DNA of 64,000 nucleotides. It comes from Utricularia gibba. Lineage: Eukaryota; Streptophyta; Magnoliopsida; Lamiales; Lentibulariaceae. Below, piece by piece: positions 30,228 to 59,450 of the stretch. Where the stretch lies: positions 1,116,001-1,180,000 of the forward strand of contig NEEC01000004.1 of the NCBI GenBank assembly GCA_002189035.1. The letters are read 5' to 3'. Positions within the stretch are counted from its first letter, which is position 1. Each line of letters starts with the position of its first letter. The notes beneath the pieces are model-generated. The model was not told where the DNA came from, made no database searches, and saw only the letters and a list, made by a program, of their open reading frames with translations. The translations under genes and the position numbers were made by a program.

Positions 30228-31928
30228 TTAGAACTTCTGAATATCACATTCAGGAACAAAGATGCCGTGAAAGCCGTAGGGGACACGGCTGGGAAGCCCC
30301 ACGACGCCGACTACATCAAGTTCCGGTGACTTGGCATCCATCACCAAGAATCTTGATTCACCGCTTGTTTCGTCATGGACGTAAACCACGAGGTATCCAT
30401 CGTCTTCCCCAGTGATAGTCTTCGGGTTTTCGGGTGAGCGGGGCACGAAAATGGCCTCCCCGGCGAAGCAAGACTGCCCGAAATGTCGCCTGCCGACCAC
30501 GCAATCACTAGACAGCGAGATGTCCAGCTTCACTATGCCGGAGAATTTCGGCATCGGATCTCCGATTGCCGCGTAGGCATACCTTATTCGAAAATTTCGG
30601 CATCGGATCATTGTCCATTTTGTGTTGAAAAGGGATGGGGTTCGTCGTTCATACCTGTTCTTTTGTCCGACGAATGCGTCGTTAATAACTGCAAATTCGA
30701 GGTTCATGGGGGAGAGCCGGCGACGAACCACAGTACCTTGCCGGAGATCTATCGTCACCATCTCCATGGAAGATTTTGGATCCAAATCCTCGAGCGCGTT
30801 CTCAATAGAGAGAATGTTGGGGCCAACCATTACTACAGTATCGCCGTCATCCTCGTCCCAAGCATTTGCTGTGTGGATAAGATTTAACCCCGCCGCCTCA
30901 AACCACCGCATCTCCGATTCATTCGCCGCGTATCTTGGTATAATTCCAATTCGGGAAACTTTCCCGGCGTTCGCAGTCACTATTGCATCGCCGTTCACGA
31001 TCCCGACGGGGTTGATTAGGAATTGGTTCTCGTTGAAAATCGCGTATCTTTCAGTGATCGCGAAGTCGTGTAGGAAACAGGGATCTTTAAAAGAGAAAAT
31101 TGGTACGTCGGGCTGTTTTTCTCCAAGGGGGTTTATTCTGAAGAACGTCACAAATGGCGGAATCGGGCTGTATCTGAAACAGAACGTCTCCCCTGTTTTG
31201 GGGTCAGTTTTCGGGTGCGCCGTGAAGTTCGCAGAGAGTTTGCCGGCGAAATCGTGGCGGCCGAGAGTGTCTATCTCGCCGTTGGATTGGATTTCAATGG
31301 CGTAGGGGAGATCGGATTCGCCTAACGCGTAGGGCTTCCCCCCGATAAGTGCCAAACTCGTATTCGCCACTCCGATACCGTTTTCAGGATTATACTCCCC
31401 GGCGATCATCCTGGCCAAGGTGACTGCCCCACGGGCAGCCAATGAAGAGAGACTGGTGATGCCAGAAAATACACTGTGAAAAACAGAGTGTCCCTTCTCC
31501 TTTTCCACTTGATACTTGTAAGTTCTCACAAAGCGGCTACAGAATCTAGCATTTCCACCGGAGATGGTGATCGCGTGAAGCATTCCGTCGCCGTCGAACA
31601 CATGGTACGGGCCTCGGGGAAGGAACTGTGGATTGGGGCCGTTGCGTATATACGTGCCATCGAGCGAGGAGGGCAGGGTCCCTTCTATCACGAAGCATTC
31701 GGTAGGCGGAAGCTCATCCACCGGAGCAAAGTTCCCGGCAAGAACGTGTTTAGGGTCCAAGCAGCGCTTCCGGGGTGGATCAATGAAGGTGTCAATGAAA
31801 TGATCCGCCGCCCTGAAAATTGACCCCAGGAGAGAAGGCGGATGCGGTGGCTTGCGGCGGAGGTTTGCATGCTGAGCGTTGGTCAGAAAACAGTGTTGTG
31901 AAGCGGCGGCTAATGCAAAAAAAGGCAT
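30228..31928 (-). CDS. CCD4: carotenoid cleavage dioxygenase 4, copy 1 (short stop-free intron)
   Basis: Exons 31928-30655 and 30582-30228 give 542 aa; if the 72-nt intron is kept, the same frame gives 566 aa. The Ser/His-rich N-terminus looks like a plastid transit peptide. The seven-bladed propeller blocks are clear: IRNGPNPQFLPRGPYHVFDGDGMLHAI, TAHPKTDP, FLHDFAIT, IHTANAWDEDD and YGFHGIFV, which supply the four iron-binding His. CCD4 enzymes in plastoglobules cleave carotenoids (often at the 9,10 or 9',10' bond), lowering petal and fruit colour and making apocarotenoid volatiles. Splicing gives NRYAYAAIGDP as in the other copies. This copy is the most divergent of the four. An upstream in-frame stretch lacks ATG, so 31928 is the likely start. 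Confidence 0.93.
   Translation of the reverse strand: MPFFALAAASQHCFLTNAQHANLRRKPPHPPSLLGSIFRAADHFIDTFIDPPRKRCLDPKHVLAGNFAPVDELPPTECFVIEGTLPSSLDGTYIRNGPNPQFLPRGPYHVFDGDGMLHAITISGGNARFCSRFVRTYKYQVEKEKGHSVFHSVFSGITSLSSLAARGAVTLARMIAGEYNPENGIGVANTSLALIGGKPYALGESDLPYAIEIQSNGEIDTLGRHDFAGKLSANFTAHPKTDPKTGETFCFRYSPIPPFVTFFRINPLGEKQPDVPIFSFKDPCFLHDFAITERYAIFNENQFLINPVGIVNGDAIVTANAGKVSRIGIIPRYAANESEMRWFEAAGLNLIHTANAWDEDDGDTVVMVGPNILSIENALEDLDPKSSMEMVTIDLRQGTVVRRRLSPMNLEFAVINDAFVGQKNRYERRTPSLFNTKWTMIRCRNFRIRYAYAAIGDPMPKFSGIVKLDISLSSDCVVGRRHFGQSCFAGEAIFVPRSPENPKTITGEDDGYLVVYVHDETSGESRFLVMDAKSPELDVVGVVGLPSRVPYGFHGIFVPECDIQKF
30583..30654 (-). other. 72-nt in-frame, stop-free intron of CCD4-1
   Basis: On the minus strand it starts GTATGA and ends AATAAG, at the same phase-2 position as the introns of the other three copies. 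Its length is a multiple of three and it has no stop codon, so both forms would be translated. Its 3' part repeats 17 bases of the neighbouring exon (see findings). Confidence 0.7.
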
Positions 31929-33896: not shown

Positions 33897-35706
33897 TTAT
33901 AATTTTTTGAGATCACGTTCAGGAACGAAGATGCCGTGAAAGCCGTAGGGGACCCGGTGGGGTAGTCGCACGGTGGCGACTATATCAAGCTCGGGTGACG
34001 CTGCATCCATCACCACGAATCTCGACTCTCCGCTTTTTTCGTCATGCACATACACTACAAGATGCCCGTCGTCCTCCGCCGCATTCGGATTTTCGGGGCA
34101 TCGGGGGACGAAAATAGGCTCGCCGGAGAAGCGACCCGGCCCGAAATCGCGGCTAACAGCTACACAGTCACGGCCACCATCCTCCTTCATCAGTGAGAGG
34201 TCGAGTTTCACCACGCCGGACATTCTCGGGAACGGATCTCCGATGGCCGCGTACACATACCTTCGTTATTCACACACACTTCTCAATTAAAAAATAAAAA
34301 TAAAAAAACACTATCGGTTAGCCTACTGACGAACAAGTTGGAGAATTATTACAAAAAATAATATTATTAGAACAAAAAAAAGCAATTGGACACAAAAAAT
34401 CGATTACGTACCGATTTTGCCGACCGACAAACGCCGGGTTGATCACCATGAACTCTATGTTCATGACGGACACTAGACAGCGAGCCACCGTGCCCCGCCG
34501 GAGATCGATTTTCACCATCACAGTCGCAGTTTGCAGGAGTTCCATGTCTTCAAGGGCGTGCTCGATACCTAATATATTAGGGGCCAAAATGACAACAACA
34601 TTACCGCCATCCTCTTCCCAGGCATTCGTGAAGTGAATGAAGTTCAGCCTCGGGGTCTCGAACCACCGCATCTCTGATTCGTCTGTCGCGTATCTGGGAA
34701 TAATTCCGATGCGAGGAACTTTTGAGGTTTTCGCCGCCACCATAGCGCCGCCGTTCACGATCCCGATAGGGTTCACTACGATTTGGTTCTCGTTGAAAAT
34801 TGCGTATTTTTTGGTGATCGCGAAGTCGTGTAAAAAGCAGGGGTCTTTGAAGGAGAAGATTGGAACATCCGGCTGCTTTTCCCCGTCGGGGTTGATTCTG
34901 AAAAAGGTTGAAAATGGCTGAATTTGACCGTACCGGAAGGAAAATGTTTCTCCAGTGACCGGGTCGGTTTTCGGGTGCGCTGTCATGCTCCCGGAGAGCT
35001 TCCCGTCGAAATCGTGGCGTCCGAGAGTGTGTATCTCGCCGTCAGATGCGATTTTAATGGCGTAAGGAAGATCCGATTCGCCTAAGGCAAACAACTTTCC
35101 GGCGACCATTGCCAAACTAGTATTGGCCAAGCCGATGCCGCGACCCAGATCATGTTCCCCGGAGATAATCCGTGCCACGCAGAGAGCTCCACGAGCCGCC
35201 AGTCCTGGTAAACTAGTGAAGCCGGAGAACAAACTATGAAAAACAGAGTGCCCCTTTTCTTTCTCCACCTGATATTTGTAAGTTTTCACAAAACGGCTAC
35301 AGAAAATGGCTTTCCCACCAGAAATCGTGATCGCGTGTAGCATACCGTCCCCGTCGAACAGATGGTACGGGCCGCGGGGAAGATAGTGTGGATTTGGGCC
35401 GTTTCGGATATACGCGCCATCGAGGGAGCTGGGCAAAGCGCCGTAGATGACCGAGCATTCTGTCGGCTGGATCTCGCCCACCGGAGAAAAGTTCCCGGCA
35501 AGGATGCGCTTGGGGTCTCTGATGGGATTCCGGGGAGGATCAATGAAGGTGTCGATTAAATGATCCGCCACCGTGAAAAGTACTGCTGCCAGAGACGGCG
35601 ACGCCGCCCCTGGTTTTAGCTGTGTCGGGGTGGTTTGCCGATGGGTTTGAGGAGAGAGAGCCCTGTAAGGTGGGAGAGATTTAGAAGATAACGCTAAAAA
35701 AGCCAT
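33897..35706 (-). CDS. CCD4: carotenoid cleavage dioxygenase 4, copy 2
   Basis: Exons 35706-34412 (1295 nt) and 34260-33897 (364 nt) give 552 aa. The intron of 151 nt contains stops, so it must be removed. The start MAFLALSSKSLPPY is chosen because a TATA box lies ~50-60 nt upstream, which would place the further in-frame ATG at 35757 inside or above the TATA box. The iron-ligand His motifs TAHPKTDP, FLHDFAIT, FIHFTNAWEED and YGFHGIFV are all intact, and the N-terminus is plastid-transit-like. It is very close to copy 3 in both exons and in the 5' flank. Intact and probably active. Confidence 0.94.
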
Positions 35707-36655
35707 GGCCGGAAGTGCAGAAACCTCCGGTGGATACAGACCCCTTTTCCATCTCATATATATATAAAGAAGTAAATAAGTATCTGCAAACAGAGGCGAA
35801 CTAAAAAAATAATTGATATTTTTATGAAAGTAAATTTATTGCGGGCCACCTATGTTGTCCATTTATAAAATTATTCATCCTTATTTTCTATTTTACATAC
35901 CGCAACCAATTTTTTATATATGTGATTATCAATTTTATCAGACACTTAATAAAGATGATTAATTTTGGAATATATCATAGAGCATTGCGGGATCTTCTTC
36001 TTGTATTTTCAATTGTTTTCATGTTGTTAAATTTGAAGATTTATGCCTTGGTGCACAGAAACGTGCGTATTAGATTATTATATAAAAATGAAGATTCAAA
36101 AAAGGAAACAAGTAAGGCCATCCTTTCAAAAAAAATAATTATATAATTGATTTTAATACAATTTAATATTATAATATATATTTTTAAAGTTAAAAATAAG
36201 AATTTGATTTTTATGTGTAAATCCATATTTAGTGATAATTTTATAAAACTAAATTTGTAAATTATATGTTGTTATTATTATAATTTAAATAGATTTACAT
36301 TAAAATTACAATTTAAAATTAAAATATTTCGATGGCTTAAAATCATATTCAATATAGTCATTGAAAACAATAATTGTAAATGTAAATTCAATTTTAAAAT
36401 CACCTCATATAAAAAAAAAATTATCGTTTCATGTTTCTGATAAAATTAGAATGATTGTTTTAAAAAATACTTATCATACAATAGAATATGATATATATTA
36501 GAATTAATTCTACGAAAATATAATTAATTTTTAAATATCCCTAAAATGCCTAAATAGGCAAGCACCGGCTGGGCCGTTAAATTTCGTGTAACCACGCCGC
36601 CTCGGAGACAGGAAAAGTCGGTTCCGACTTCCGAGTAAAGTAATAGGGGGGTGAG
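35707..36655. repeat. 5'-flank block shared by CCD4 copies 2 and 3 (first copy)
   Basis: About 0.95 kb upstream of copy 2 aligns by eye with 42005-42965 upstream of copy 3. Examples are the stretch with ttgttttcatgttgttaaatt and the stretch with ggtgcacagaaacgtgcg, present in both in the same order. Similarity stops at the agtaata..ggtgagat words near 36650 and 42960. There are no genes inside. Confidence 0.8.
35756..35768 (-). promoter_or_regulatory. TATA box of CCD4 copy 2
   Basis: TTTATATATATA on the minus strand, about 50-60 nt upstream of ATG 35706. Copies 3 and 4 have TATAAATA in the same place (near 42056-42066 and 46383-46392), so the core promoter is conserved. Confidence 0.6.
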
Positions 36656-38954
36656 ATGAATCTGCAAACTGTAACAATAAATAGATTTGCAAAATAACTG
36701 ATTTTGGTTTTAAATTGGCAAAGTAACTAATTTTTTTAAAAAAACATTTGCAATATAACCAACATTCTTAATATATTGATTTTATATTACTTTTCGAAAT
36801 ACTTAATTATAAATATCATTTATAATCTTTAAATGAATTTAAATAATAAATAATAAATAATAAATTTGTATAAAAAAAGTTAGAAATTTACCAAAAAATT
36901 AAGATTAATTCAAAAATACAAAAATAAATATCATCTTAAATAATTGATTAATTTACAATACTTATTTTCAAAATACTTCCAAATATACATTTTCTTATTT
37001 TATCTTTTCAATTTTATTAAAATTACAATTAAAATTTTGTTTCAAACATAATGAAAAAAATATAGTTATACTTAATCTAAGTAAGATATTCAATATTTCT
37101 TACATAAAACATCAAATTGTATATTTAACACTTCAATATATACTTATAAATATATCTTAAAAAATTATATTCTAAATTTGTGAATTCTAATTAAGCATTT
37201 AACATAGTTATTTGTTAAAAAACATATAAGTTTGATATTCCTATATTATATTTTTATTAAATATAAATAATTATTATTGATGGTGACTAAACCAGAGTGA
37301 GGTAATCGGACACTGAAAAGTTGATGAAAGGTGTTCTGACAGACTGGTACAAGTCTACAAATCGCTAAGTGTCAAAATTATTAGCGACAGTCGTTTTGGA
37401 CAGTATGAAAAATAACCGAATTACAGCAACGACCTAGTAGTTGGCGGTTATTTGAGAGCAAGGCCATAGTCCGAACATCAGACATAGAAAGCAATCGATG
37501 TCTATAAAGTTCAGAATTCGGACAAACAAACCTTGTCTATAAATATAGGAAACTCCAAACAAGAAAGAGTTGAACTCAATGCCCTTCACAACCTGTATTT
37601 TCATTCTCCGACGGTTTCCACGTTAAAATCTCTAACTTCCTTATTTCTGTTAATCGCATCGTACTCCACACAATGCGTGAACGTAAATCGGGTACGACGC
37701 ATACGGACGTACCCACAACCCGATAATCGGCTCTTGCCTTAATATCGATTTTTAACCATAACAATTATAAAAAGGGATTTAATTAAATTTCTATAAAATA
37801 CCCTATAAACTCATGACATATATTTCATTTTTTTATTAAATATGATGAAATGGATGATCTTTATTTATATTCTATAAAACATATTTAAAAATCATATAAG
37901 TAATCACAAAAAATAATGTAATTTCATATGCATGTAGTTTATATACAATTATTAAAATTTTATAATTATTAAAATCTAAATAATGACATCCTTAATATGG
38001 GGACAATCATGTGGAACAATCACATGTGACATGATTTGATAATACATGTATATTTTGTTAAGGAGAGGAGCACATGGGGAGTTTGTTCATTTATTAATAA
38101 ATCTGTTTTATTCTAAATGATAACTTTCATATCAATAGAATTTATTATGAGTTATTATTCATTAAGTAGAATATATTTTAGGAATCATATTTTTGGTTTG
38201 AAATTAATTTGATGAAATCAGATTTACTGTAAAGAGTAAGTGCAAATATATTTTCCTAAAACTTAAATCATAATATACTAATTAATTTTTTAATTGTAAT
38301 ATAATAATATAATACAATTTTAAAATCAAAGAAAAACAATGAATTTTTTGTCATTGGTTGAAAAAAAAACATATCCTCATGGCACTCGATGGTTTTCGCA
38401 CAATACTATCAACTGTAACTATAGGTTGCAAGCAAAAAAAAATTTATAACGCAATTGTAGATTCTTTTAGAAAACAACTAATAGCATTTATTGATTGCAC
38501 TTGATGTTAAACACCTAATACCATAGAGTGCATCAAAAAATTAAAAAAATTTGAGATATTCTCATTTCACTCTATAAATAAAATAGATATTTCTTATTCT
38601 TAAGTACAATGTTGCGACAATATGTTTATAGTAGTGATAAAATTATTTTATGGCGTAAATATTCTTCGGGATCCATTTGAGTGTATTTCATACAATATGG
38701 ATCATATTCGAGTTATCAACGTTAATCGTTAAATTACATATAAAAAGTTACTTAAATGTATAAAAGAGCAGTTTGATATAAATGCATATAATCTCCTAGT
38801 TACAATAAAATTCTATGATGAACTATCAAACGAGATGAAATGTTTGCATATTTCGAATTCTAATATTTTAAGATATATATTAAACCCAAGCATATATATT
38901 AAGATATATGAAAATAATATATAAATAACTATATATCAAATAATATAATTTTAT
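36656..38954. other. unique AT-rich segment between the CCD4 repeat blocks
   Basis: About 2.3 kb found between copies 2 and 3 but not between 3 and 4, where the corresponding gap is about 0.2 kb. It is AT-rich apart from the solo LTR at 37278-37763. No coding region is supported. Confidence 0.6.
37278..37763. mobile_element. solo LTR (486 bp) with 5-bp target-site duplication
   Basis: The element starts TG (tgatggtgac) and ends CA (accataaca) and is flanked on both sides by ATTAT (37273-37277 and 37764-37768). It is GC-richer than its surroundings and has an internal TATA-like ctataaatata near 37540, as expected for an LTR promoter. No internal retroelement genes are present, so it is best read as a solo LTR left by LTR-LTR recombination. 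The superfamily is not determined. Confidence 0.65.
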
Positions 38955-40185
38955 TAAACATATTATAAACTAATTTTATACCCTCTTATCAAAGACCTAG
39001 AGGTTTTCTCTTTTATTACTTCTCTGTTCTTCTTTTAGGTGCATTTTAACATATTTCATTTTCTTTGTTTAATAAGCCCTAGAAATTCATTGATTTTTTT
39101 CGCAGAATCGACAGGTATAAACAAAGTGAACAAACTCGAATGAAATTCCTTCTCTTGTTGACTCCGTCAAATCTTCATCAACAGTTTTTCTATTTTCCTT
39201 TTTTTACTATCATTTTTTTGCTACTAAATGCCAGCCGTACGGCGTACATTTGAATATTATTTCAGTGGGACACATCAGACAAGCTAAATTTCCTCCGACT
39301 AAAACCAGAAATATTTAATATTAAATATCATATTGTGTTAAATATCATATTTGGATCTTTCGGGCCATGAAAAAAATCAACTTGAAATACCATTGAAGAT
39401 GCAAATTGGGAACAATAATTTATTTGCAAATGGGGAATTTAATACTTTGGTATATAATCTAGCAATGACTTCAAACAATAAAAGCCTAATTAATCCTTGA
39501 AATATAAAACCCTTTACCTCATCAATAAAAAAAATTCAAATCCTAACACTCTTAGTAAAAGTATCAAGTTTTAACGATGAAAAAATGTTGATCAATTTCG
39601 TGGAACTTGAACCCAAACTATTGCTTCGAACTCATATATGATCAATATTTTCGAAATAAAACTCTTTTCAGTAAGTATGACAACACTCAGAACATTGTGA
39701 TCAAAATGGATATTCTATCTTTATATAATATTCTTTGTTTTGAATATTTAACTTTTAAAGTTTTATGTTCTTACTTTTTGAAAAAAAAATGAATCGTATA
39801 AGATTATGAAATTTTTTTTATCAAGTATAAGATACTGTTATTAAGACTCTCGTCTAACAAATCTAATTTATTAGTTTCGAAAAATTGTTTTGGTTTAGAA
39901 TTATGCCCCCTATATGTTATGATTCATTATGTGCATCATTTTTCCCAATCAAATACCCATCCAAATAATGGTTTGTTGTTTGATTGATCATGGCTCCCAA
40001 GCATAGAGACAAACTTAAAAGTAGAAAATATTAGTTTTCGATAATATTTGCTATTTTAGAAAATGTTATTTCTTATTTTACTTTTTTGCTATTTGCCAGT
40101 TTCCTGATATTTCCAATAATCTACTATTCATGCATTTTTCACTATTTACAAATTAAGTAACGTCATCATATCTTAAACCGGTGGA
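38955..40185. repeat. 3'-flank block shared by CCD4 copies 3 and 4 (first copy)
   Basis: About 1.2 kb downstream of copy 3 that matches 43175-44398 downstream of copy 4 almost throughout, including ttttataccctcttatca near the left edge and ggctcccaagcatagagac near the right. Copy 2 retains only a ~100-bp related piece (33500-33600). Confidence 0.8.
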
Positions 40186-42004
40186 TTATAATTTTTTGAG
40201 ATCACGTTCAGGGACGAAGATGCCGTGAAAGCCGTAGGGGACCCGCTGGGGTAGTCGCACGGTGGCGACTATATCAAGCTCCGGTGACGCTGCATCCATC
40301 ACTAAGAATCTCGACTCTCCGCTTTTTTCGTCATGCACATACACGACAAGATGTCCATCGTCCTCCGCCGCGTTCGGATTTTCCGGGCATCGGGGGACGA
40401 AAATAGGCTCGCCGGAGAAGCAATCCGGCCCGAAATCGCGGCTAGCAGCTACGCAATCACAGCCACCATCCTCGTTCATCAGTGAGAGGTCGAGTTTCAC
40501 CACGCCGGACATTCTCGGCATCGGATCTCCGATGGCCGCGTACACATACCTTCATTATTCACAGACACTAGTCAATTAAGAAACACTATCGGAATTCGAA
40601 TATTTAGAGGAGGAGAGGCCCCACGGACGAACAAGTTGGGAGAATTATTACAAAAAATAATATTATTAGAAAAAAAAAAAGCAATTGGACACAAAAATCT
40701 ATTACGTACCGATTTTGCCGACCGACAAACGCCGGGTTGATCACCGTGAACTCTAGGTTCATGGCGGACACCGGACAGCGAGCCACAGTGCCCCGCCGGA
40801 GATCGATTTTCACCTTCTCTGTCGCAGTTTGCAGGAGTTCCATGTCTTCAAGGGCGTGCTGGATACCTAACATATTAGGAGCCAATATGACAACAACATT
40901 ACCGCCATCCTCTTCCCAGGCATTCGTGAAGTGAATCAAGTTCAGCCCTGGCGTCTCGAACCACCGCATCTCCGAGTCGTCTGTCGCGTATCTCGGAATA
41001 ATTCCGATGCGGGGAACCTTCGAGGTGCTTGCCGCCACCATAGCGCTGCCGTTCACGAACCCCATCGGGTTAATTACGATTTGGTTCTCGTTGAAAATCG
41101 CGTATTTTTTAGTGATCGCGAAGTCGTGTAAAAAGCCGGGGTCTTTGAAGGAGAAGATTGGAACATCCGGCTGTTTTTCCCCCTCGGAATTGATTCTGAA
41201 AAACGTTAAGAATGGCTGAATTGGACCGTACCGGAAGGAAAATGTTTCTCCAGTGACCGGGTCGGTTTTCGGGTGCGCCGTCATGCTCCCGGAGAGCTCC
41301 CCGTCGAAATCGTAGCGTCCGAGAGTGTGTATCTCGCCGTCAGATGCGATTTTAATGGCGTAAGGAAGATCCGATTCGCCTAAGGAAAACAACTTTCCGG
41401 CGACCATTGCCAAACTAGTGTTGGCCAAGCCGAAGCCGCTATCCAGATCATATTCCCCGGCGATAATCCGTGCCGCGCTGAGAGCTCCACGCGCCGCCAC
41501 TCCTGGTAAACTAGTGAAGCCGGAGAACAAACTATGAAAAACAGAGTGCCCCTTTTCTTTCTCCACCTGATATTTGTAAGTTTTCACAAAACGGCTACAG
41601 AAAATGGCTTTCCCACCAGAAATCGTGATCGCGTGAAGCATACCGTCCCCGTCGAACAGATGGTACGGCCCGCGGGGAAGATAGTGTGGATTTGGGCCGT
41701 TTCGGATATACGCGCCGTCGAGGGAGCTGGGCAAAGCGCCGTAGATGACCGAGCATTCTGTCGGCTGGATCTCACCCACCGGAGCAAAGTTCCCGGCAAG
41801 GATGCGCTTGGGGTCTCTGGTGGGCTTCCGGGGAGGATCAATGAAGGTGTCGATTAAATGATCCGCCACCGTGAAAAGTGTCCCCGCCAGAGACGGCGAC
41901 GCCGCCCCTGGTTTTAGTTGTGTGGGGCTGGCTTGCTTATGGGTTTGTGGAGAGAGAGCATTGTAAGGTGGGATAGTTTTAGAAGATAACGCTAAAAAAG
42001 CCAT
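40186..42004 (-). CDS. CCD4: carotenoid cleavage dioxygenase 4, copy 3
   Basis: Exons 42004-40710 (1295 nt) and 40549-40186 (364 nt) give 552 aa with a 160-nt intron at the common phase-2 site (AATCG^gtacgt). The four His motifs and the IRNGPNPHYLPRGPYHLFDGDG block are intact. The coding sequence is nearest copy 2, and it shares its 5' flank with copy 2 but its 3' flank with copy 4. A second ATG-free in-frame extension upstream runs through the TATA box and is rejected as start. Nothing appears broken. Confidence 0.94.
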
Positions 42005-42965
42005 GGCCGGAAGTGCAGAAACCTCCCGTGGACACAAACCCCTTTTCCATCTCAGATATTTATAAAGTAAATAATTCAAAGAAGAGGCGAATTAAAAAAT
42101 CATTGATATTGTTCTGAAAGTAAATTTATTACGTGTCATCTATGTTGTCTAATCATCATTATTTTCTATTTTACATACCACGGCCAATTTTTTATATGAT
42201 TGATGATCATTTTTACTACACACTCAAGAGAGATGGTTAATTTTATAACATATCATGTCTGTTTAGAGCATTGGGGGATCTTATTCTTGTCTTTTCAATT
42301 GTTTTCATGTTGTTAAATTTGGAAATTTATGCCTTGGTGCACAGAAACGTGCGTATTAGATTATTATACTAAAATGAAGATTCAAAAAGGGAAACAAGTA
42401 ACGCCATCCTTTCAAAAAAAAATCATTCTATAATTGATTTTAATACAATATAATATTATGATATAATGAAAATTAATATATTTTTTAAAAAATAATAATT
42501 ATAAAAGTTAAAAATAAGAATTTGATTTTTATGTGTAAATCCATATTGAGTGATAATTTTATAAACCTAAATTTGTAAATTATTTGTTGTTATTATTATA
42601 TTTAAATAGATTTACGTTAAAATTACAGTTTAAAATTAAAATAATTCAATAGTTTAAAATTATATTCACTATAATCATTCCCAAAAAATAAATGTAATTG
42701 TAAATTCAATTTTAAAAATCACGTCTTATAAAAAAAAGTTATCATTTCATGTCTCTGATAAAATTAGAATGATTATTTTAAATAATACTTATATACAATA
42801 GAATATGATATATATTAGAATTAATTCTACAAAAATATAATTAACTTTTAAATATCACTAAAATGCCTAAATCGGCCAGCACCGGCCGGGGCCGCCTTGC
42901 CGTTGAAATTTCCGTGAAACAACGCCGCCTCGGAGACAGGAAAAGTCAGCAATAGGGGAGTGAGA
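42005..42965. repeat. 5'-flank block shared by CCD4 copies 2 and 3 (second copy)
   Basis: Counterpart of 35707-36655. It holds the TATA box and proximal promoter of copy 3, so copies 2 and 3 should be expressed alike (inference). Confidence 0.8.
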
Positions 42966-43174
42966 TTGTTCAAAAACAACAATCATTGGTATGCGTCTTG
43001 AAGTGACACCGAAGCGAAATAAAAGACTGTTTTTGGGTGTCGGGAAGGCAAATGCGCACTGGTTTTGGATTTGAAAGCTTTGTTTCATTAGCTGATTTAG
43101 ATTTTTATGTGTTCAGATTATTTAAATTTAGATAAATTCAAATATATAGATATAAAAATATTCATATCTTTCAT
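42966..43174. other. short joint between CCD4 repeat blocks
   Basis: About 0.2 kb links the 5'-flank block of copy 3 to the 3'-flank block of copy 4. It is AT-rich with no gene. In the other interval the same position holds 2.3 kb. Confidence 0.5.
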
Positions 43175-44398
43175 TAAGTATACATATTATAAATTAATTT
43201 TATACCCTCTTATCAATGAGCCAGAGGTTTTTACTCTTTTATTACTTCTCTGTTCTTCTTTTATGTGCATTTTAACATATTTCATTTTCTTTGTTTAATA
43301 AGCCTTAGAAATTCATTGATTTTTTTCGCAGAATCGACGGGTATTAACAAAGTGAACAAACTCGAATGAAATTCCTTCTCTGGTTGACTCCGTCAACTCT
43401 TCATGAACAGTTTTTCTATTTTCCTTTTTTTTCTCTCATTTTTTTGCTACAAAATGCCAGCCGTACAATTGAATATTCTTTGAATAGGACACATCAGACC
43501 AGCTAAATTTCCTCCGACTAAAACCAGAAATATTCAATATTAAATATAATATTTGTGTTAAATATCATACTTGGATCTTTCGGGCCATGAAAAAAATCAA
43601 CTTGAAATATCATTGAAGATGCAAATTTGGAACAATAATTTATTTGTAAATGGGGAATTTAACACTTTGGTATATAATCTAGCAATGACTTCAAACAATA
43701 AAAAGCCTAATTAATCCTTGAAATATAAAACTCTTTAACTCATCAATAAAAAAAAATTTCAAATCCTAACACTCTTAGTAAAAGTATCAAGTTTAACGAT
43801 TAAAATTTTGATCAATTTTGTGGAACATGAACCCAAACTATTGGTTCTAACTCATCTATGATCAGTATTTTCAAAATCAAACTCTTTTAGTTACGTATGA
43901 CAACACTCATAACATTGTCATCAAAATGGATATTATATCTTTATACAATATTCTATGTTTTGAATATTTAACTTTTAAAGTTTTATGTTTTTACTTTTTG
44001 AAAAAAACGGATCGTATAAGATTATGAAATTTTTTTATCAAGTGTAAGATATCGTTATTAAGACTCTCGTCTTACAAATCTAATTTATTAGTTTCGAAAA
44101 GTTGGTTTGGTTTAGAATTATGCTTCCAATATGTTATGATTCATTATGTGCATCATTTTTCCCAATCAAATACGCATCCAAATAATGGTTTGTTGTTTGA
44201 TTGATCATGGCTCCCAAGCATAGAGACAAACTTAAAAGTAGAAAATATTAGTTTTCGATAATATTTGCTATTTTAGAAAATGTTATTTCTTATTTTTTTT
44301 TCTATTTTCCATTTTCCTGATATTTCCAATAATATACTAATCATGCGTGTTTCACTATTTACAAATTAAGTAACGTCATCACATCTTTAACCGGTGGA
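43175..44398. repeat. 3'-flank block shared by CCD4 copies 3 and 4 (second copy)
   Basis: Counterpart of 38955-40185, differing by scattered substitutions and small indels. No gene inside. Confidence 0.8.
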
Positions 44399-46330
44399 TT
44401 ATAATTTTTTGAGATCACGTTCAGGGACGAAGATGCCGTGAAAGCCGTAGGGGACACGGCGGGGTAGTCGCACGGCGGCGACTATATCAAGCTCCGGTGA
44501 CCCTGCATCCATCACCAAGAATCTAGACTCTCCGCTTTTTTCGTCGTGCACATAAGTGACAAGATGCCCCTCGTCCTCCGCCGCATTCGGGTTTCCCGGG
44601 GATCCGGGGACGAAAATAGGCTCGCCGGAGAAGCAACTCGGCCCGAAATAGCGGCTAGCGGCCACACAATCACGGCCACCCTCCTTCATCAGTGAGAGGT
44701 CGAGCTTCACCACCCCTGACATCCACGGCATCGGATCTCCGATGGCCGCGTACGCATACCTTCGTTATTCAAAAAAACATTTACAAATACCCTTCAAGCA
44801 AATCGTATATTTTTTTAATTTAATAATTTTTTAATAGAAATACGACATCAATAATGCCATAGTGAAAAAATCAACTCAAATTTCCTAGAAATAAAAATAT
44901 AAAAAAAGACTATCCTATTCCGGATATTTAGAGGTGAGGCCCTACAGATAAACAAGTTGGAGAATCATATGAACCATAGAATATAACATTATTACAAAAA
45001 AATAAGGAAGTGGACATAAGCAATCGAGTACGTACCAATTTTTCCGACCGACAAACGCCGGGTTGATCACCGTGAACTCTAGGTTCATGGCGGACAACGG
45101 ACGGCGAACAACCGTTCCCCGCCGGAGATCGATTTTCACCATCTCCATCGAAGTGTGCACGAGATCCATGTCTTCAAGGGCGTGCTCGATGGATAAAGTG
45201 TTGGGAGCCAATATGACGACAACGTTGCCGCCATCCTCTTCCCAGGCATTCGTGAAGTGAATGAAGTTCAGCCCCGGGGTCTCGAACCACCGCATCTCTG
45301 ATTCGTCGGTCGCGTATCTGGGAATAATTCCGATGCGGGGAATTTTTGAGGTTTTCGCCGCCACCATAGCGCCGCTGTTCACGATCTCGATAGGGTTCAT
45401 TACGATTTGGTTCTCGTTGAAAATTGCGTATTTTTTGGTGATCGCAAAGTCGTGTAAGAAGCAGGGGTCTTTGAAGGAGAAGATTGGAACATCCGGCTGT
45501 TTTTCCCCGTCGGGGTTGATTCTGAAAAAGGTTAAAAATGGCTGAATTGGACCGTACCGGAAGGAAAATGTTTCTCCAGTGACCGGGTCGGTTTTCGGGT
45601 GCGCTGTCATGCTCCCGGAGAGCTTCCCGTCGAAATCGTGGCGTCCGAGAGTGTGTATCTCGCCGTCGGATGCGATTTTAACGGCGTACGGAATATCGGA
45701 TTCGCCTAAAGCATAGAGCTTTCCGGAAACCATAGCCAAACTTGTATTTGCCAAGCCGAGGCCGCTACCCAGATCATATTCCCCGGCGATAATCCGTGCC
45801 GCGCTGAGAGCTCCACGCGCGGCCAGTCCTGGTAAACTAGTGAAGCCGGAAAATATACTCTGAATAACCGGGTGCCCCTTTTCTTTCTCCACTTGATATT
45901 TGTAAGTCTTCACAAAACGGCTACAGAACATGGCTTTCCCGCCGGAAATCGTGATGGCGTGAAGCATACCATCCCCGTCGAACAGATGGTACGGGCCGCG
46001 GGGCAGGTACTGTGGATTTGGGCCATTTCGGATGTACGCGCCGTCGAGGGAGCTGGGCAAAGCGCCGTGGATGACCGAGCATTCTGTCGGCTGGAGCTCG
46101 CCCACCGGAGCAAAGTTCCCGGCAAGGATGCGCTTGGGGTCTATGGTGCGCTTACGGGGAGGATCAATGAAGGTATTGATTAAATGGTCTGCCGCCGTGA
46201 AAAGTGTCCCCGCCAGAGACGGCGACGCCCCCCCTACTCTTAGTTTTCCGGGGATGGTTTCTTCATGGGTTTGTGCAGACAGGGCACTGTAAGGTGGGAG
46301 CGATTTAGAAGATAACAGTAACAAAGGCAT
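44399..46330 (-). CDS. CCD4: carotenoid cleavage dioxygenase 4, copy 4
   Basis: Exons 46330-45036 (1295 nt) and 44759-44399 (361 nt) give 551 aa with a 276-nt intron. The start MPLLLLSSKSLPPY follows a TATA box ~55 nt upstream. The His motifs TAHPKTDP, FLHDFAIT, FIHFTNAWEED and YGFHGIFV are intact. At the intron the split codon reads TG^G, giving NWYAYAAIGD instead of NRYxYAAIGD in the others. Exon 2 lacks one codon in the acidic loop (MKEGGRDC). Divergence from copies 2 and 3 is visible across the protein (for example PVIQSIFSG against SVFHSLFSG). Probably functional, though the R-to-W change is at a conserved position. Confidence 0.93.
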
Positions 46331-50424: not shown

Positions 50425-53400
50425 ATGAGAATGGCGGCCGGCTACCTGCTCATATGTTGGGTTCTAGTGTTGCTCGACTTGTGGCCGGAGAATGCGCTGG
50501 CGGCGGTGGTTCCAGTGGGAGTCGGGGTGGTGCTCGACATGAGTACAGAGGTTGGGAAGATGAGTTTGGGTTCCATGAACATAGCTTTGGCAGACTTCTA
50601 CGCTGAAAATCCACAATTTGTGACGAGGTTGGTTCTAACTACGAGGGACTCCGCCGGAGACGTGGTGGCTGCAGCCTCATCAGGTGAGTCTGCGCGTACC
50701 TCAACATTTTACCAAACTGAATACGATTTCTCTTCCCTTCTAGAACTTGGGATTCAGGTCAAAAAACTCTGCTTGGTGGGAGTTTCATAAGAAAGTGGAT
50801 TATTGTTAAGTTATTTACGATGATGGATTTAGAGTTAGACAAGGACCCTAAACTATAGAGTTAAGCCAATTCATATTTTTAATTGTTATTATAATTTTAT
50901 AGATGCCTACATTATTGATTTATAATTTATCATACACAGTTGTAGACTTGTTGGAAAATGTTCGAGTTACAGCAATTATCGGACCACTAAAATCGACTGA
51001 GGCTAACTTTGTGATACATATTGGTGGTAAAGCACAAGTGCCCATTGTATCATTTACCGCTACAAGTCCTTCACTCACATCCATTCGAAGCCCATACTTT
51101 TTTAGAACTGCTTTGAGCGACTCTTCACAAGTGGATGCTATAAGTGCCATAATTGAGGCTTTTAGTTGGAGAGAAGTTTCCTTGGTTTACGTTGATGATG
51201 AGTTTGGACAAGGAATGGTTCCCTTTTTGAGTGATGCTTTGGAACAAATAGATGTTCGCATTCCTTATAGAAGTGGGATTCCTTCATCCGCAACTGATGA
51301 TCAGATTGTTGCTGAGCTTAATAAGCTAATGACTATGCAAACCCGAGTTTTTATTGTTCACATGACAAAGGTTCTTGGTTCCCGCTTCTTCCTAAAAGTT
51401 CAGCAACTTGGAATGATGAGCGAAGAATATGTCTGGATTATAACTGACGCATTGGCAAATCCATTGAATACCTTGAATCCGGATGTCTTGGAGTCCATGG
51501 TGGGAGTCTTGGGAGTGAGACCGTATGTTGGAAAAACGACAAAGCTTGAGAAATTTCGTGCACATTACAAAAGACAATTTCGCCAGCATAATGGATCTAT
51601 GGAACTCACAGTTTTTGGCTTATGGGCGTATGACACTATAACTGCACTAGCCATGGCAACTGAACAAGTTTCAGCATCCATCAGAAATGAAACATTTTCA
51701 ATGCCAAATTTCTCAAGTAATGCCACTGACCTTAAAAAGTTGAGGGTGTCAAGTGCTGGATTCCATCTTATTAAAGCACTGTCAAACACAACATTTCAAG
51801 GCTTGGCAGGGAGATTTAGATTGATTAATCAACAACTTCAATCTCCTCCTTATGAGGTGGTTAACATAGTTGGTCCAGGAGCAAGGATAGTGGGATATTG
51901 GACCAAAGAAGGTGGTATTACTCAAGAACTCAAATCAACAGGTGAAGTCTCTACATCAAAGAGTAAATTCAAGTCCATTATATGGCCGGGAGATAAAATC
52001 TCTCCACCAAAAGGTTGGGTGTTACCCGTAAATGAAAAAAAACTTCGAATTTTGGTACCAGTAAAGCATGGATTTACCGAATTTGTGGATGTCTTAACAA
52101 AAATACAAGGATTTTCCATTGATGTTTTTGATGCAGTTATAAAAGCATTACCATATGGTATATCATATGAGTATATCCCCTTTTATTCAACAAACGAAAA
52201 CATTTCTCATACATATAATGACATGGTGTATCAAGTATATCTCAAGGTAATTGTGTTTTCATATACTTCTCAACGTTTTAGCTCTCTAAATTGACTGTGA
52301 TTGTTTGAATGATCAGAATTATGATGCTGCAGTGGGTGATATCACAATCATAGCAAATCGATCACGATTTGTTGACTTCTCACTTCCTTATTCAGAAGCT
52401 GGTATTTCTATGCTTGTTCCTTATATTAACAAGAACAACAACAAAGCATGGTTATTTCTAAAGCCACTCACATGGCAACTTTGGTTAACAAGCTTCTTCT
52501 CATTCATAGCCATTGCTATTGTGATATGGATTCTAGAACACAGAGAGATGAAAACTGACTTTAAGGGTACTCTTCATCACCAAGCAGGCATGCTATTGTG
52601 GTATTCATTTTCAACTATGGTCTTTTCTCAAAGTAAGTTATTAATACAAGTATAGATATGCACTTTTGAATATTTGAATTTTCTCTTGATTGTTTTTAAT
52701 GTATTTTTGCAGGGGAGAACATAAGAAACAACTTTGCAAGAATAATTATGATCTTATGGTTTTTTGTTATTCTTATTCTAACACAAAGCTACACAGCAAA
52801 TTTGGCATCACTTTTAACTGTGCAACAACTACAACCTTCTTTCACAGATATCAAAACACTTATCCAAACTCATGCTTATGTGGGCTATCAAAAAGGATCC
52901 TTTATGTTTGAATTTCTCTTGAACAACAATTTCAGCCCATCAAGATTGTTACCTTACCGCAGTATAGAGGAACTCAACGAATTGTTCATCAAGGGAAGTG
53001 GAAATGGAGGCATTGCAGCTGCTCTTGATGAAATTCCATTCTTAAAACTCTTCTTGTCCCATCATTGTTCAAAATACACTATAACCGGTCCTGTATACAA
53101 AACAGGCGGCTTCGGATTCGTAAGTAAAAAGACACAAAGTTTATTCCTTTCCTTTCTGCTATGGATGGTACTCATGTGTGCATTATGCTTGGTTGTAGGC
53201 GTTTCCAACCGGGTCTCCATTGGTGTCCGACATTTCGAAGGCGGTACTCAATGTTACTGAGAGTGACGGCATGTTTCTGATAGAAAAAAAATCATTTGGA
53301 GATTCAAGGGAATGTTCAAATGCCCCGTTATCTACCAACGATAGCCTTGGTCTGGAAAGCTTCTGGGCGCTTTTTGCGATCGTGGGCGCAATTGCAGCAT

Positions 53401-53591
53401 TCTTCGTTACTGTTTCCGTACTCACTTTTCTATATCAACAACGAGACTCACTCCACCCACAGGTTTCGTCAGTGTGGTGTAGAATAACAAAGTTGCTGCA
53501 GAAGTTCTTCGTCAAGAGCCATCAGCAAGTACCTACAGCACCTTCGCCATTGGGCAATGGCCAACCTAGTAGCACAAACAGCATTCATTAG
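50425..53591 (+). CDS. GLR: glutamate receptor-like channel (GLR), tandem copy 1
   Basis: Exons 50425-50683, 50940-52246, 52317-52632, 52713-53119, 53199-53591 encode 893 aa, all in frame. Order of parts: signal peptide (LLICWVLVLLDLWPENALA), amino-terminal ANF-receptor domain (VVLDMSTEVGKMS, AIIGPLKSTEANFVI, FTATSPSL), ligand-binding S1 (KKLRILVPVKHGFTEFV), M1 (WLTSFFSFIAIAIVIWIL), pore loop (LLWYSFSTMVFSQRE), M3 with gate motif SYTANLASLLTV, S2 (ITGPVYKTGGFGF, AFPTGSPLVSDIS) and M4 (FWALFAIVGAIAAFFVTV). GLRs are amino-acid-gated calcium-permeable channels in the plasma membrane or endomembranes, used in wound and defence signalling. Exon structure and blocks fit plant clade 2. Nothing broken. 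Confidence 0.95.
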
Positions 53592-56357
53592 ATGTAATGG
53601 ACATTCAAAACGATGATGATTCAAATGTAGCGTTAAAACCTGCAGTAGATCGTGCTAATGGGTATACGAAAGTTGTACGCAATTGATATTAGGTAAAAAC
53701 TTTGATAGTAAAAATAAAAAAATAGATTTCTAGATTTAATGTGATTCATTCTAAAAAAGTAGTTATTCACATATCTAATTTTGAGAAAAATTCAATATTT
53801 ATCATATTAAATACAATAAATTTATTTTGGTAAATTATCGGATTTTAATTTTTTTTTTATCTTTTTTTTTCGAAAATTATATAGTACGATAAACACGAAT
53901 ATAAAACAATACTATCTTTTTTCTTTTTTTATTCTAACCTCAAAAATCGAAAAACTAACTCAAAACATCTAAAATGATATAAGATTGAATCTCATATCTG
54001 GAAGTAACCCACCCTTCAGCCGACGGTACCAATCATCCCTCACCAACCGCATTTTTTTATTTTTTTATTTTTTAATGTGGGCCCACATGGAGTGATCGTA
54101 ACTTGGACAAAACTCATTAGAGACACTCTACAAATGAAGATCAAGTTCATTCTGTTTACAAAATTTTTCATCGTTTTTATTTAAATTCAAATAAATTTAT
54201 CTTTTTTTTTTCTGATCTCGTCAACTAAACGCACATCAAAATTCAAATGTCTAAAACAGAGAAAAGTGCTCTTAATACACAACATGATATTTTTATTCGG
54301 TATTAAACACAGTGTTGGGGTTAGCACCAAAAAGCATATCTTATACGTGCAACATGAAGGACCACGAAAACTAGAGGTCCAAATAACTTTTGAAGTTGCT
54401 TACATTTTTGTTTTGAAAGGAATATCATAATTTTAGACAATTATATTCAATAAAAAAATTTATATTGAATATTTATTTCTTGATTTACTTTTCTGGTGAT
54501 CTCTTGACCGAATCTTCTCATGAGCCCGAGAAGATGGAGGCGACGTTAGGGCAATTTCCAACAGACTTCGGAATTATTGTGTTTGGTAAGGCAGATTATT
54601 ATTCATCATCTTTAACCTATGTGTATTAGAAAGAATTCTAATGAATCTTTTTGATATCACCATATTCGAATATTGCTTAAACATACTCAGTCTCATAGAA
54701 TACATGTTGATAAAATTTCTAACGATCACAATATAATCCATAGTTTCACTAATCATATGACCCATATATATATATTTTTTTTTTTGTAGAAACTAGACAT
54801 TACAAAAATGTTCACCATTATTGAAAATGGATTAAGTAAGACGATCATTAATACAAACTTAAAAAAGACTTTGGATCAATGCACTACCAGGGTCAATATT
54901 CTCCCAAAAATTAAGAAGAAAGTATTGTAAATAAATACATGTTCTTATGTTGCTAGGAAAAAAGCTCTAACTCATATTTTAAAAAAAAAAAAGAAAAAAT
55001 TTGTTGTGTGCTTCACACCCACTTCCTGATTCTGCAGGCTGGATGGGTATAGACTGCTTGGTGACATTTGTTGTCAAGGGGAGAGCCTGATATATTGATC
55101 GGATCAAAATACACTCATGTATAATCATATATCAAATACGGGTAAATACTTTAATGTATGTTGAAATCCATCTAAACCCACATATCAAACACGTTCTTAG
55201 TGTTTCGATTACCTTCTTTGTGGTTATATTAGTTTCACTGTTATTAAACTTTTTTTTTTTGTTTTTGAAAGCTATATTAACTTTATAATATCACTAGAAA
55301 ATAAATCATAGAAAATGGGATACAATGTTTAAATAATATGACCCTTATTTTGTTGTCTACAAAGCTCACTCTACTTTTAAGCATCTTTTTTACTCCTAGA
55401 ATTCTTGAGCAACACGTTTTTCTGTTTTTTTTCCCCTTTTTTTGACTTATTGAATGCCAACTACCCATTTGAATATTATTTCTATGGAAGTCATCACCAC
55501 CAATCAATTTCCTCTGAATAAAACAAAAGTTCCAAATTAAACATAAAAAAAATTATATTTGGAGTTCTTGTTCCATGGAAAGAATGAAGTCTAGATCGCA
55601 AACTTGACCACGCCTTCAAATTTGAACCAATATTCATTCTTTGTTGTTAAATCTAACAACCTCAAAGAAAAAATCGTAACCAATCCATTCAAATATGAAA
55701 CCCCTAATTTTGGGTTTGCGAGGTTGTTTTAAATTTAAGATATGGTTTAAGATAAAATATAATTTATAGATTTAAATTTGAAATGATGGTTCTAAGTAAG
55801 ATAAGGTATGCAAAATTTATTACTTTTTTATTGATACTTAAATTTTAAATTTGGTATATTAAGTTGCTTATTCGTAATTAAGTATTTTTTAAAAATATAT
55901 TACTTTTATTTGTATTTCATAAATAAATTTTTATTTTAAATACGAATACATCAAAATTTAGTAAATTTTCACCCTGGTAGTATTCCCGATCTGCTGACCC
56001 GGAATTGTGTATCATACATAGCTCTGAAGTCTGAACTAGTCAAGAAGTGGCCTTCAGCCAATGGGGTCTGTTGATTAGTAAATTATTGCATCACCCTTCT
56101 GTGGGTCCCCAAAGTTGACTAATATGAAGACCATGCTCGCCTCCTCACATCTAGAAACGCCCATTTGATGATTGTTGATCGTGTTATTACAGCCAACACT
56201 GGGGAATCGAATTCATGTTGCAGAAACTCTGGATCTGAAATATTCAACCCTCAAGACCATTTCAACTGGTTCTTCATGACCCCACCGGGATAGATAAATA
56301 GCTACTTCACATCTCTTCGTACACCCATTTTTTTCCAGAGAACAGACGCACAGACAC
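53592..56357. other. intergenic region between GLR copies 1 and 2
   Basis: AT-rich. 54515-54620 repeats the block at 47616-47730. 54300-54400 resembles 60630-60710. 55420-55580 resembles the CCD4 3'-flank words at 39180-39370 and 43390-43580. 56033-56205 is the duplicated GLR promoter block. No gene is supported. Confidence 0.55.
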
Positions 56358-59300
56358 ATGAGAACGGCGGCCGGCTACCTGCTCTTGTGTTGGGTTCTAG
56401 TGTTACTCGACTTTTCGCCGGAGAATGTGCTGGCGGCGGTGGTTCTGGTGAGGGTCGGGGTGGTGCTCGACATGAGTACGGAGGTTGGGAAGATGAGTTT
56501 GGGTTCCATGAACATAGCTTTGGCAGACTTCTACGCCGAGAATCCACAATTTCAGACGAGGTTGGTTCTTACTACGAGGGACTCCGCCGGAGACGTTGTC
56601 GCTGCAGCCTCATCAGGTGTGTACCTCAACATTTAACCAAACTGAGCACGATTTCTCTTCCTTTCTGAAGCATGGGTTAATAAAGTGGATTACTGTTGCT
56701 TTCATTTAGTCAAGTCATTTATGATGATGGTTTTAGAGTTTAGACACGGAACCTAAACTATAGATTGAGACCATAGATCATTGGGGGTTATATACCATGC
56801 TAATTAATTGTTCTCAATGTATCATTAATTTTTAATTTATGATATACAGTTGTAGACTTATTGAAAAATATTCAAGTTAAGGCGATTATCGGACCACTAA
56901 AATCGACGGAGGCTAACTTCATGATACATCTTGGTGGTAAAGCACAAGTGCCGATTATATCATTTACTGCTACAAGTCCTTCACTCACATCCATTCGAAG
57001 CCCATACTTTTTTAGAACTGCTTTGAGCGACTCTTCCCAAGTAGATGCCATAAGCGCCATAATTGAGGCTTTTAGTTGGAGAGAAGTCTCCTTGGTTTAC
57101 GTTGATGATGAGTTTGGACAAGGAATGGTTCCCTTTTTGAGTGATGCTTTGGAACAAATAGATGTTCGCATTCCTTATAGAAGTGGGATTCCTTCATCCG
57201 CAACTGATGATCAGATTGCTGCTGAGCTTAATAAGCTAATGACTATGCAAACCCGAGTTTTTATTGTTCACATGACAAAGGTTCTTGGTTCCCGCTTCTT
57301 CCTAAAAGTTCAGCAACTTGGAATGATGAGCGAAGAATATGTCTGGATTATAACTGACGCATTGACAAATCCATTGAATACCTTGAATCCGGATGTCTTG
57401 GAGTCCATGGTGGGAGTCTTGGGAGTGAGACCGTATGTTGGAAAAACGACAAAGCTTGAGAAATTTCGTGCACGTTACAAAAGACAATTTCACCAGCATA
57501 ATGGATCTATGGAACTCACAGTTTTTGGCTTATGGGCGTATGACACTATAACTGCACTAGCCATGGCAACTGAACAAGTTTCAGCATCTATCAGAAATGA
57601 AACTCTCTTAATGCCAAATGTTTCAAGTAATGCCACTGACCTTAAAAAGTTGAGGGTGTCAAGTGCTGGATTCCATCTTATTAAAGCACTGTCAAATACA
57701 ACATTTCAAGGATTGGCTGGGAGCTTTAAATTGATTAATCAACAACTTCAGTCTCCGCCTTATGAGGTGGTTAACATAGTTGGTCCAGGAGCAAGAGTAG
57801 TAGGATATTGGACTAAAGAAGGTGGTATTACTCAAGAACTCAAATCAACAGGTGAAGTCTCTACATCAAAGGGTAAATTCAAGTCCATTATATGGCCGGG
57901 AGATAAAATCTCTCCACCAAAAGGTTGGGTGTTACCCGTAAATGAAAAAAAACTTCGAATTTTGGTACCAGAAAAACATGGATTTACCGAATTCGTCGAT
58001 GTTTCAACAAAAGTACAAGGGTTTTCTATTGATGTTTTTGATGCAGTTATAAGAGCACTACCATTTGGTGTATCATATGAGTACATCCCCTTTTCCACAA
58101 CAAATCCAAACACTTCTGACACATATAACGACATGGTATACCAAGTATATCTCAAGGTAATTGTGTTTTCATATTCTTCTCAAAAGTTCAGCTCTCTAAA
58201 TTGAATTTGACTGTTTGAATGATGAACAGAATTATGATGCTGCAGTGGGTGATATAACAATCATAGCAAATCGATCACGATTTGTTGACTTCTCACTTCC
58301 ATATACAGAATCTGGTGTTTCTATGCTTGTTCCTTACGTTAAGAAGAACAACAACAAAGCATGGTTATTTACAAAGCCACTTACATGGAAACTTTGGTTA
58401 ACTAGCTTCTGCTCATTCATAGTCATTGCTATTGTGATATGGATTCTAGAACACAGAGAAACGGATACCGACTTTAAGGGCACTGTTTGGCACCAAGGAG
58501 TCAGTGTATTGTGGTATTCATTCTCAACTATGTCATTTTGTCAAAGTAAGTTGTTAATACAAGTGTAGGTATGTGATTTTGAATATTTGAGTTTTCTCTT
58601 GATTGTTTTTAATGCATTTTTGCAGGGGAGAACATAAAAAACCCTTTTGCGAGAGTAGTTATGATCTTATGGTTCTTTCTTGTTCTTATTCTAATACAAA
58701 GTTACACAGCAAATTTGGCATCACTTTTAACTGTGCCACAACTACAACCTTCTATCCCAGATATGAAAACACTTGTCCAAACTCATGCTTATGTGGGTTA
58801 TCAAAAAGGATCATTTTTGTTGGAATTTCTCTTGAACAACAATTTCAGCCCATCAAGATTGATAACCTACACAAGCATGGAGGAGCTCAACGAGTTGTTC
58901 ATGAAGGGGAGTGGAAACGGAGGCATTGCTGCCGCTTTTGATGAAACTCCATACTTAAAACTCTTCTTGTCCCATCATTGTTCAAAATACACTTTAACCG
59001 GTCCTGTATACAAAACAGGAGGCTTTGGATTCGTAAGTAAAAAGACATAAAACTCATTACTTTCCTTTCTGCTCTGGATGTTACTTATGCGTGCATTATG
59101 CTTGGTTGTAGGTGTTTCCAACCGGGTCTCCATTGGTGTCCGACATTTCGAAGGCGGTACTCAATGTTACTGAGAGTGACGGCATGTTTCTGATAGAAAA
59201 AAAATCATTTGGGGATTCAAGGGAATGTTCAAATGCCGAACTATCTACCAATGATAGCCTTGGTCTGGAAAGCTTCTGGGCGCTATTTGCGATTGTGGGT

Positions 59301-59450
59301 GGATTCGCGGCATTCTTCATTATACTCATTTTCCTATATCAACAACGAGACTCATTCCGCCTGCAGGGTTCATCAGTGTGGCGTAGAATAAAAAAGTTGC
59401 TGCAGAGGTTCTTCGTCAAGAGCCAGCAGCAAGTAGCCCCAACTTCCTGA
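56358..59450 (+). CDS. GLR: glutamate receptor-like channel (GLR), tandem copy 2
   Basis: Exons 56358-56616, 56850-58156, 58230-58545, 58626-59032, 59112-59450 encode 875 aa. The first four exons have exactly the same lengths as in copy 1 and near-identical sequence; the last is shorter because the C-terminal tail ends at QQVAPTS. All channel parts are present: signal peptide, ATD, S1 (KKLRILVPEKHGFTEFV), M1, pore loop (VLWYSFSTMSFCQRE), SYTANLASLLTV gate, S2 and M4. The pore loop differs from copy 1 (SFCQ against VFSQ), and the GFGF-to-VFPTG joint starts with Val instead of Ala. A recent tandem duplicate, intact and probably functional. A TATA-like agataaatagc lies ~65 nt upstream. Confidence 0.95.

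Follow-up and report, generated by a model that had tools for sequence, protein, structure and literature searches.

A short stop-free interval in one of four tandem CCD4 genes of Utricularia gibba: probably an inherited intron patched with exon sequence

A 72-nt interval in the first of four tandem CCD4-type genes of Utricularia gibba, a class encoding enzymes that cleave carotenoid pigments, raises a question: is it an intron, or is it coding sequence that may be either kept or removed? A preliminary description of the window (the whole 64,000-nt stretch of DNA analyzed here) had called the interval exitron-like and had ascribed part of it to duplicated exon sequence. The four genes lie on the minus strand, and their spliced products comprise 542, 552, 552, and 551 amino acids (copies 1–4). 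The window also contains at least three similar genes in tandem at 50903–63303 on the plus strand; inspected by eye, their ORF translations resemble glutamate-receptor-like channels. The parts of copy 1 are as follows.

30655–31928, minus strand: first coding exon of CCD4 copy 1, starting at the ATG (31928) and ending ...AAC AG (ORF and alignment with copies 2–4; Pfam RPE65, PF03055)
30583–30654, minus strand: copy-1 intron, 72 nt, GT-AG, phase 2, a multiple of three, retention frame without a stop, 22% T, 42% GC
30583–30589, minus strand: acceptor tail GAATAAG of copy 1, resembling GAATAACGAAG / GAATAATGAAG of copies 2–4; the non-CAG acceptor AAG|G is found in all four copies
30228–30582, minus strand: CCD4 copy 1, coding exon 2, beginning YAAIGDPMPKFSG... 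and running to the stop (ORF and alignment with copies 2–4)

The interval starts with GTATGAACG and ends with the GAATAAG tail; its full 72 nt read GTATGAACGACGAACCCCATCCCTTTTCAACACAAAATGGACAATGATCCGATGCCGAAATTTTCGAATAAG. It is a GT-AG interval (30654–30583, minus strand) and, as had been described, has a length divisible by three and a stop-free reading frame. It sits in phase 2 (AG|G TAT), and both non-retention frames contain stops. The two predicted outcomes of keeping or removing it were likewise borne out: retention leaves an unbroken ORF of 566 amino acids from the ATG at 31928, with 24 extra residues before the YAAIGDP block, while removal yields 542 amino acids with the canonical ...FVGQKNRYAYAAIGDPMPKF. 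The additional residues, YERRTPSLFNTKWTMIRCRNFRIR, would fall directly before the strand RYAYAAIG; because RY occurs on both sides of the insert, RYAYAAIGDP would be intact even in the longer protein. The spliced protein reads NRYAYAAIGDPMPKF and is collinear with those of copies 2–4, with no gap at the intron site. It is an RPE65-family dioxygenase (PF03055, E 2.4e-114). An AlphaFold2 model of the retained form, built from a seven-row alignment of proteins from the window, was uninformative (mean pLDDT 40).

The other three copies proved, as previously stated, to have longer introns (151–276 nt) at the same position.

34261–34411, minus strand: homologous intron of CCD4 copy 2, 151 nt, stops in all frames
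40550–40709, minus strand: homologous intron of CCD4 copy 3, 160 nt, stops in all frames
44760–45035, minus strand: homologous intron of CCD4 copy 4, 276 nt, stops in all frames

Since every frame of these introns is interrupted by stops and two of the three lengths are not multiples of three, they must be spliced. Position and phase are identical in all four genes (phase 2 after AAN-NG|G), exon 2 always opens GTATG[CT][CG]TACGCGGC, and the acceptor is AAG|GTATG in every copy, with GAATAA just upstream. Because copies 2–4 have introns that match it in position, phase, and acceptor, the copy-1 interval evidently descends from an intron: judged by this comparison, it is the ancestral CCD4 intron, of the U2-type spliceosomal class and homologous to those of copies 2–4. 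In the assembly that was searched (100.09 Mb, 516 contigs), the only close CCD4 copies are these four, and further dioxygenase matches are 33–45% identical. In two solved plant relatives, VP14 and a plant carotenoid 9,10-dioxygenase, no comparable insert precedes the RYAYLA/RYVYG strand.

How unusual is the interval as an intron? The background for this question came from eleven Cpn60/TCP-1 (chaperonin) loci of the same genome (L054–L064), in which 19 introns were placed automatically by frame and GT-AG rules, so that their exact ends are approximate. They measure 66–197 nt (median 103). The preliminary description had singled out the small size of the copy-1 interval as close to the lower limit for plant introns; with six of the 19 sampled introns at 66–79 nt, a length of 72 nt is ordinary for the Utricularia gibba genome. 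Among these Cpn60/TCP-1 genes (e.g., L054 and L055), several introns measure 66–80 nt, which is consistent with general intron shortening. The median intron length in Genlisea aurea, a member of the same family that also has a small genome, is 89 nt (PMC3728226). The open frame is not rare either: the retention frame was stop-free in 21% of shuffles of the interval, and together with the one-third chance of a length divisible by three this amounts to ~7%, or about one in 14 introns of such length and composition.

T content is the single real outlier. In the interval it is 0.22 (16/72) vs. 0.31–0.53 in the 19 sampled introns, and it resembles that of exons (0.23–0.25). Not one of 890 72-nt windows within the sampled introns was as T-poor, and random sequence of intron composition reached so low a value in 0.075% of cases. 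The GC content (0.42) lies within the sampled-intron range (maximum 0.49), between intron and exon values. Recognition of plant introns is usually, but not obligatorily, aided by U-rich sequence, and the copy-1 interval lacks this usual composition. Its low T content would lower the expected efficiency of splicing while leaving the homology to the other introns standing.

The splice signals were compared with a simple consensus score. The copy-1 donor, CAG|GTATGA, scored 6.0 vs. 5.8 in copies 2–4 and 1.0–7.0 in the 19 other introns. By the same measure the acceptor AAG|G is weak, a property common to all four CCD4 copies. All of the CCD4 introns end in this uncommon acceptor (30585–30583, 34263–34261, 40552–40550, and 44762–44760, minus strand); the 19 introns sampled elsewhere in the genome all end in CAG or TAG, but their placement favored those ends. 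The best branch-point-like match in copy 1, ATGAT, lies 25 nt upstream and is weaker than in most of the others. Given this second-rate match and the low T content, splicing could be inefficient. RNA structure around the intron was unremarkable (z −0.39).

The intron also contains a copied fragment of exon 2.

30590–30609, minus strand: intronic copy GATCCGATGCCGAAATTTTC, 20 nt, matching the downstream exon at 19 of 20 positions
30541–30560, minus strand: source word GATCCGATGCCGAAATTCTC in exon 2, coding DPMPKF and carrying the copy-1-specific AAATT

The repeated word, 49 nt apart in intron and adjacent exon, is real, and at 20 nt (19/20) it is slightly longer than the 17 bp first reported. 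Its local alignment score of 35 was reached in none of 1000 dinucleotide shuffles of the intron, for which the maximum was 29. When the 20-mer was searched with one position free in the 100-Mb assembly, exact matches occurred at the intronic copy and the adjacent exon only; two further sites came near it, with one and two mismatches, and the latter is the homologous exon of copy 3. The AAATT within the word is common to the intronic copy and the copy-1 exon, and copies 2–4 read otherwise. The word must therefore have been copied within the copy-1 lineage. With one mismatch in 20 nt, against a dS of 1.05–1.14 between copy 1 and the other genes, the intronic copy also appears young. By these comparisons, the transfer is evidently both recent and local. 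The reading frames of the two words differ (MIRCRNF in the intron vs. DPMPKF in the exon).

The proposal that part of the intron arose by tandem duplication of coding sequence survives in one respect: exon sequence was copied. A tandem 49-bp duplication was rejected, as identity at offset 49 ends with the 20-nt word on both sides. The simplest reading is that a local, repair-templated insertion from the nearby exon fits better. A source for the other 45–52 bases of the intron did not emerge: genome-wide searches with a 24-nt and a 25-nt pattern, allowing up to three mismatches, recovered only the patterns themselves, and a direct similarity of 13/15 at the 5′ end of the intron was unremarkable against the upstream exon, the best score being reached by 357 of 1000 shuffles. 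For an inverted match between the intron and exon 1 (CGACGAACC...), 41 of 1000 shuffles scored as high when the whole intron was shuffled and 11 of 1000 when only its first 45 nt were; after four comparisons, the match is suggestive only. An imperfect inverted repeat (30636–30647 / 30721–30732; CGACGAACCCCA / TGTGGTTCGTCG) joins the 5′ part of the intron to exon 1. This repeat may hint at a second templated patch and is statistically weak.

Copy 1 appears to make a product that is needed. Its pairwise dN/dS against copies 2–4 is 0.17–0.19, which denotes purifying selection; a normal copy-1 product is thus required, and this favors removal of the interval. The dS values given above indicate that copy 1 separated from copies 2–4 long ago. 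Copies 2–4 (33897–46330, minus strand) are recent duplicates with respect to one another (dS 0.12–0.23), and their dN/dS is higher (0.33–0.39) than in comparisons with copy 1 (30228–31928).

From these data, we consider it probable that the copy-1 interval is the inherited CCD4 intron, shortened, patched from the exon, and spliced to give a normal 542-residue protein. A single ancestral CCD4 intron would have been inherited by all four tandem copies, and that of copy 1 would then have been shortened and partly rewritten. The rewriting was most likely the repair of a DNA break templated by the neighboring exon, which would have left the 20-nt copy behind. Presumably, the normal spliceosome removes the intron to yield an ordinary CCD4, and its stop-free length divisible by three would be a coincidence or, at most, a sign of weakly tolerated leakage. 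The position, the phase, the homology with the paralogs, and the copied word with its restriction to the copy-1 lineage are all seen in the sequence; efficient splicing and the break-repair origin are what we infer.

Could the interval instead be a true exitron, i.e., a segment of a coding exon that undergoes regulated alternative splicing and whose retained form is the main product? Exitrons are defined as internal coding-exon segments subject to alternative splicing; most derive from coding sequence, and among the distant orthologs examined, their describers saw none in which an intron took the place of an exitron (PMC4484396). A length divisible by three, the missing stops, a GC content between intron and exon values, and the exon-like T content all accord with this class. 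In the paralogs, however, the matching site is occupied by introns of identical phase, and the preliminary label does not fit an interval with such an ancestry. Moreover, the 24 residues are encoded in no homologue examined, the copied word is not in the frame of the exon from which it came, and by the simple consensus score the splice sites are no weaker than those of the paralogs; we regard an exitron as very unlikely. An intron born in copy 1 by duplication of an AGGT-containing coding segment is scarcely credible: AGGTATG does flank both splice sites and the intron is in part copied exon, but copies 2–4 have an intron at the same place with the same acceptor tail. Nor is it a duplicated 72-nt segment, because only 20 of the 72 nt match the exon and the spacing from GTATG differs (45 vs. 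22 nt). A decaying pseudogene, with the interval as mutational debris, is just as hard to credit for copy 1, whose ORF is complete whether or not the interval is kept, whose RPE65 domain match is strong, and whose dN/dS is low.

There is also the case for incipient de-intronization or leaky retention, in which the U-poor ancestral intron would be spliced inefficiently and some copy-1 protein would carry the 24 extra residues before the RYAYAAIGDP strand. The exon-like T content, the weak branch-point match combined with a non-CAG acceptor, the intact 566-residue frame, and the RY on either side of the insert speak for it. On the other hand, the splice sites score as well as those of paralogous introns that must be spliced, and no homologue examined has an insert at this site. 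Computational calls of this kind in fission yeast were mostly overturned by transcripts: among seven putative cases with transcript coverage, one was supported and six were disproved (PMC3629103). We judge leaky retention unlikely. It seems unlikely, too, that the intron is turning into coding sequence, a recent exon-templated repair having erased its stops and intron signature so that part of the enzyme would carry 24 new residues before a core propeller strand. Such a conversion, if true, would be a traceable case in which an intron turns into a protein segment that may be included or left out, opposite in direction to the usual origin of exitrons.

If the intron is an ordinary one, as we favor, the locus is a small and clear illustration of intron shortening in a compact plant genome, with patching from an adjacent exon. 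If it stays in the mRNA, the four tandem genes would afford a natural before-and-after comparison of an intron becoming coding sequence, with a measurable enzyme readout.

Several known systems bear comparison with this one. Like the exitrons of Marquez et al. (2015, PMC4484396), the copy-1 interval has a length divisible by three, no stop, and an exon-like composition; it differs from them in being an ancestral intron rather than coding exon, with splice sites that score no lower than in its paralogs. In the fission yeast cases (PMC3629103), as here, an ancestral intron can be read as coding while relatives keep a normal one, but the splice sites of copy 1 are intact. Within the dioxygenase family, a report on saffron CCD2 (PMC4884571) documents intron retention in a carotenoid cleavage dioxygenase gene, albeit one of another subfamily and another species than CCD4 copy 1. 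Direct repeats within Daphnia introns have been interpreted as footprints of staggered breaks (PMC4202315). The parallel lies in a short, non-chance direct repeat that is tied to an intron and taken as a repair footprint; in copy 1, by contrast, the repeat joins an old intron to the neighboring exon, and the intron is not newly gained. Plant CCD4 genes themselves usually have no intron or one, with introns near the 3′ end at a conserved position (PMC5133782). The single intron described here also lies in the 3′ part, and its position and phase are shared by the four paralogs; copy 1 stands apart in having an intron of only 72 nt that is T-poor and carries a 20-nt copy of its exon.
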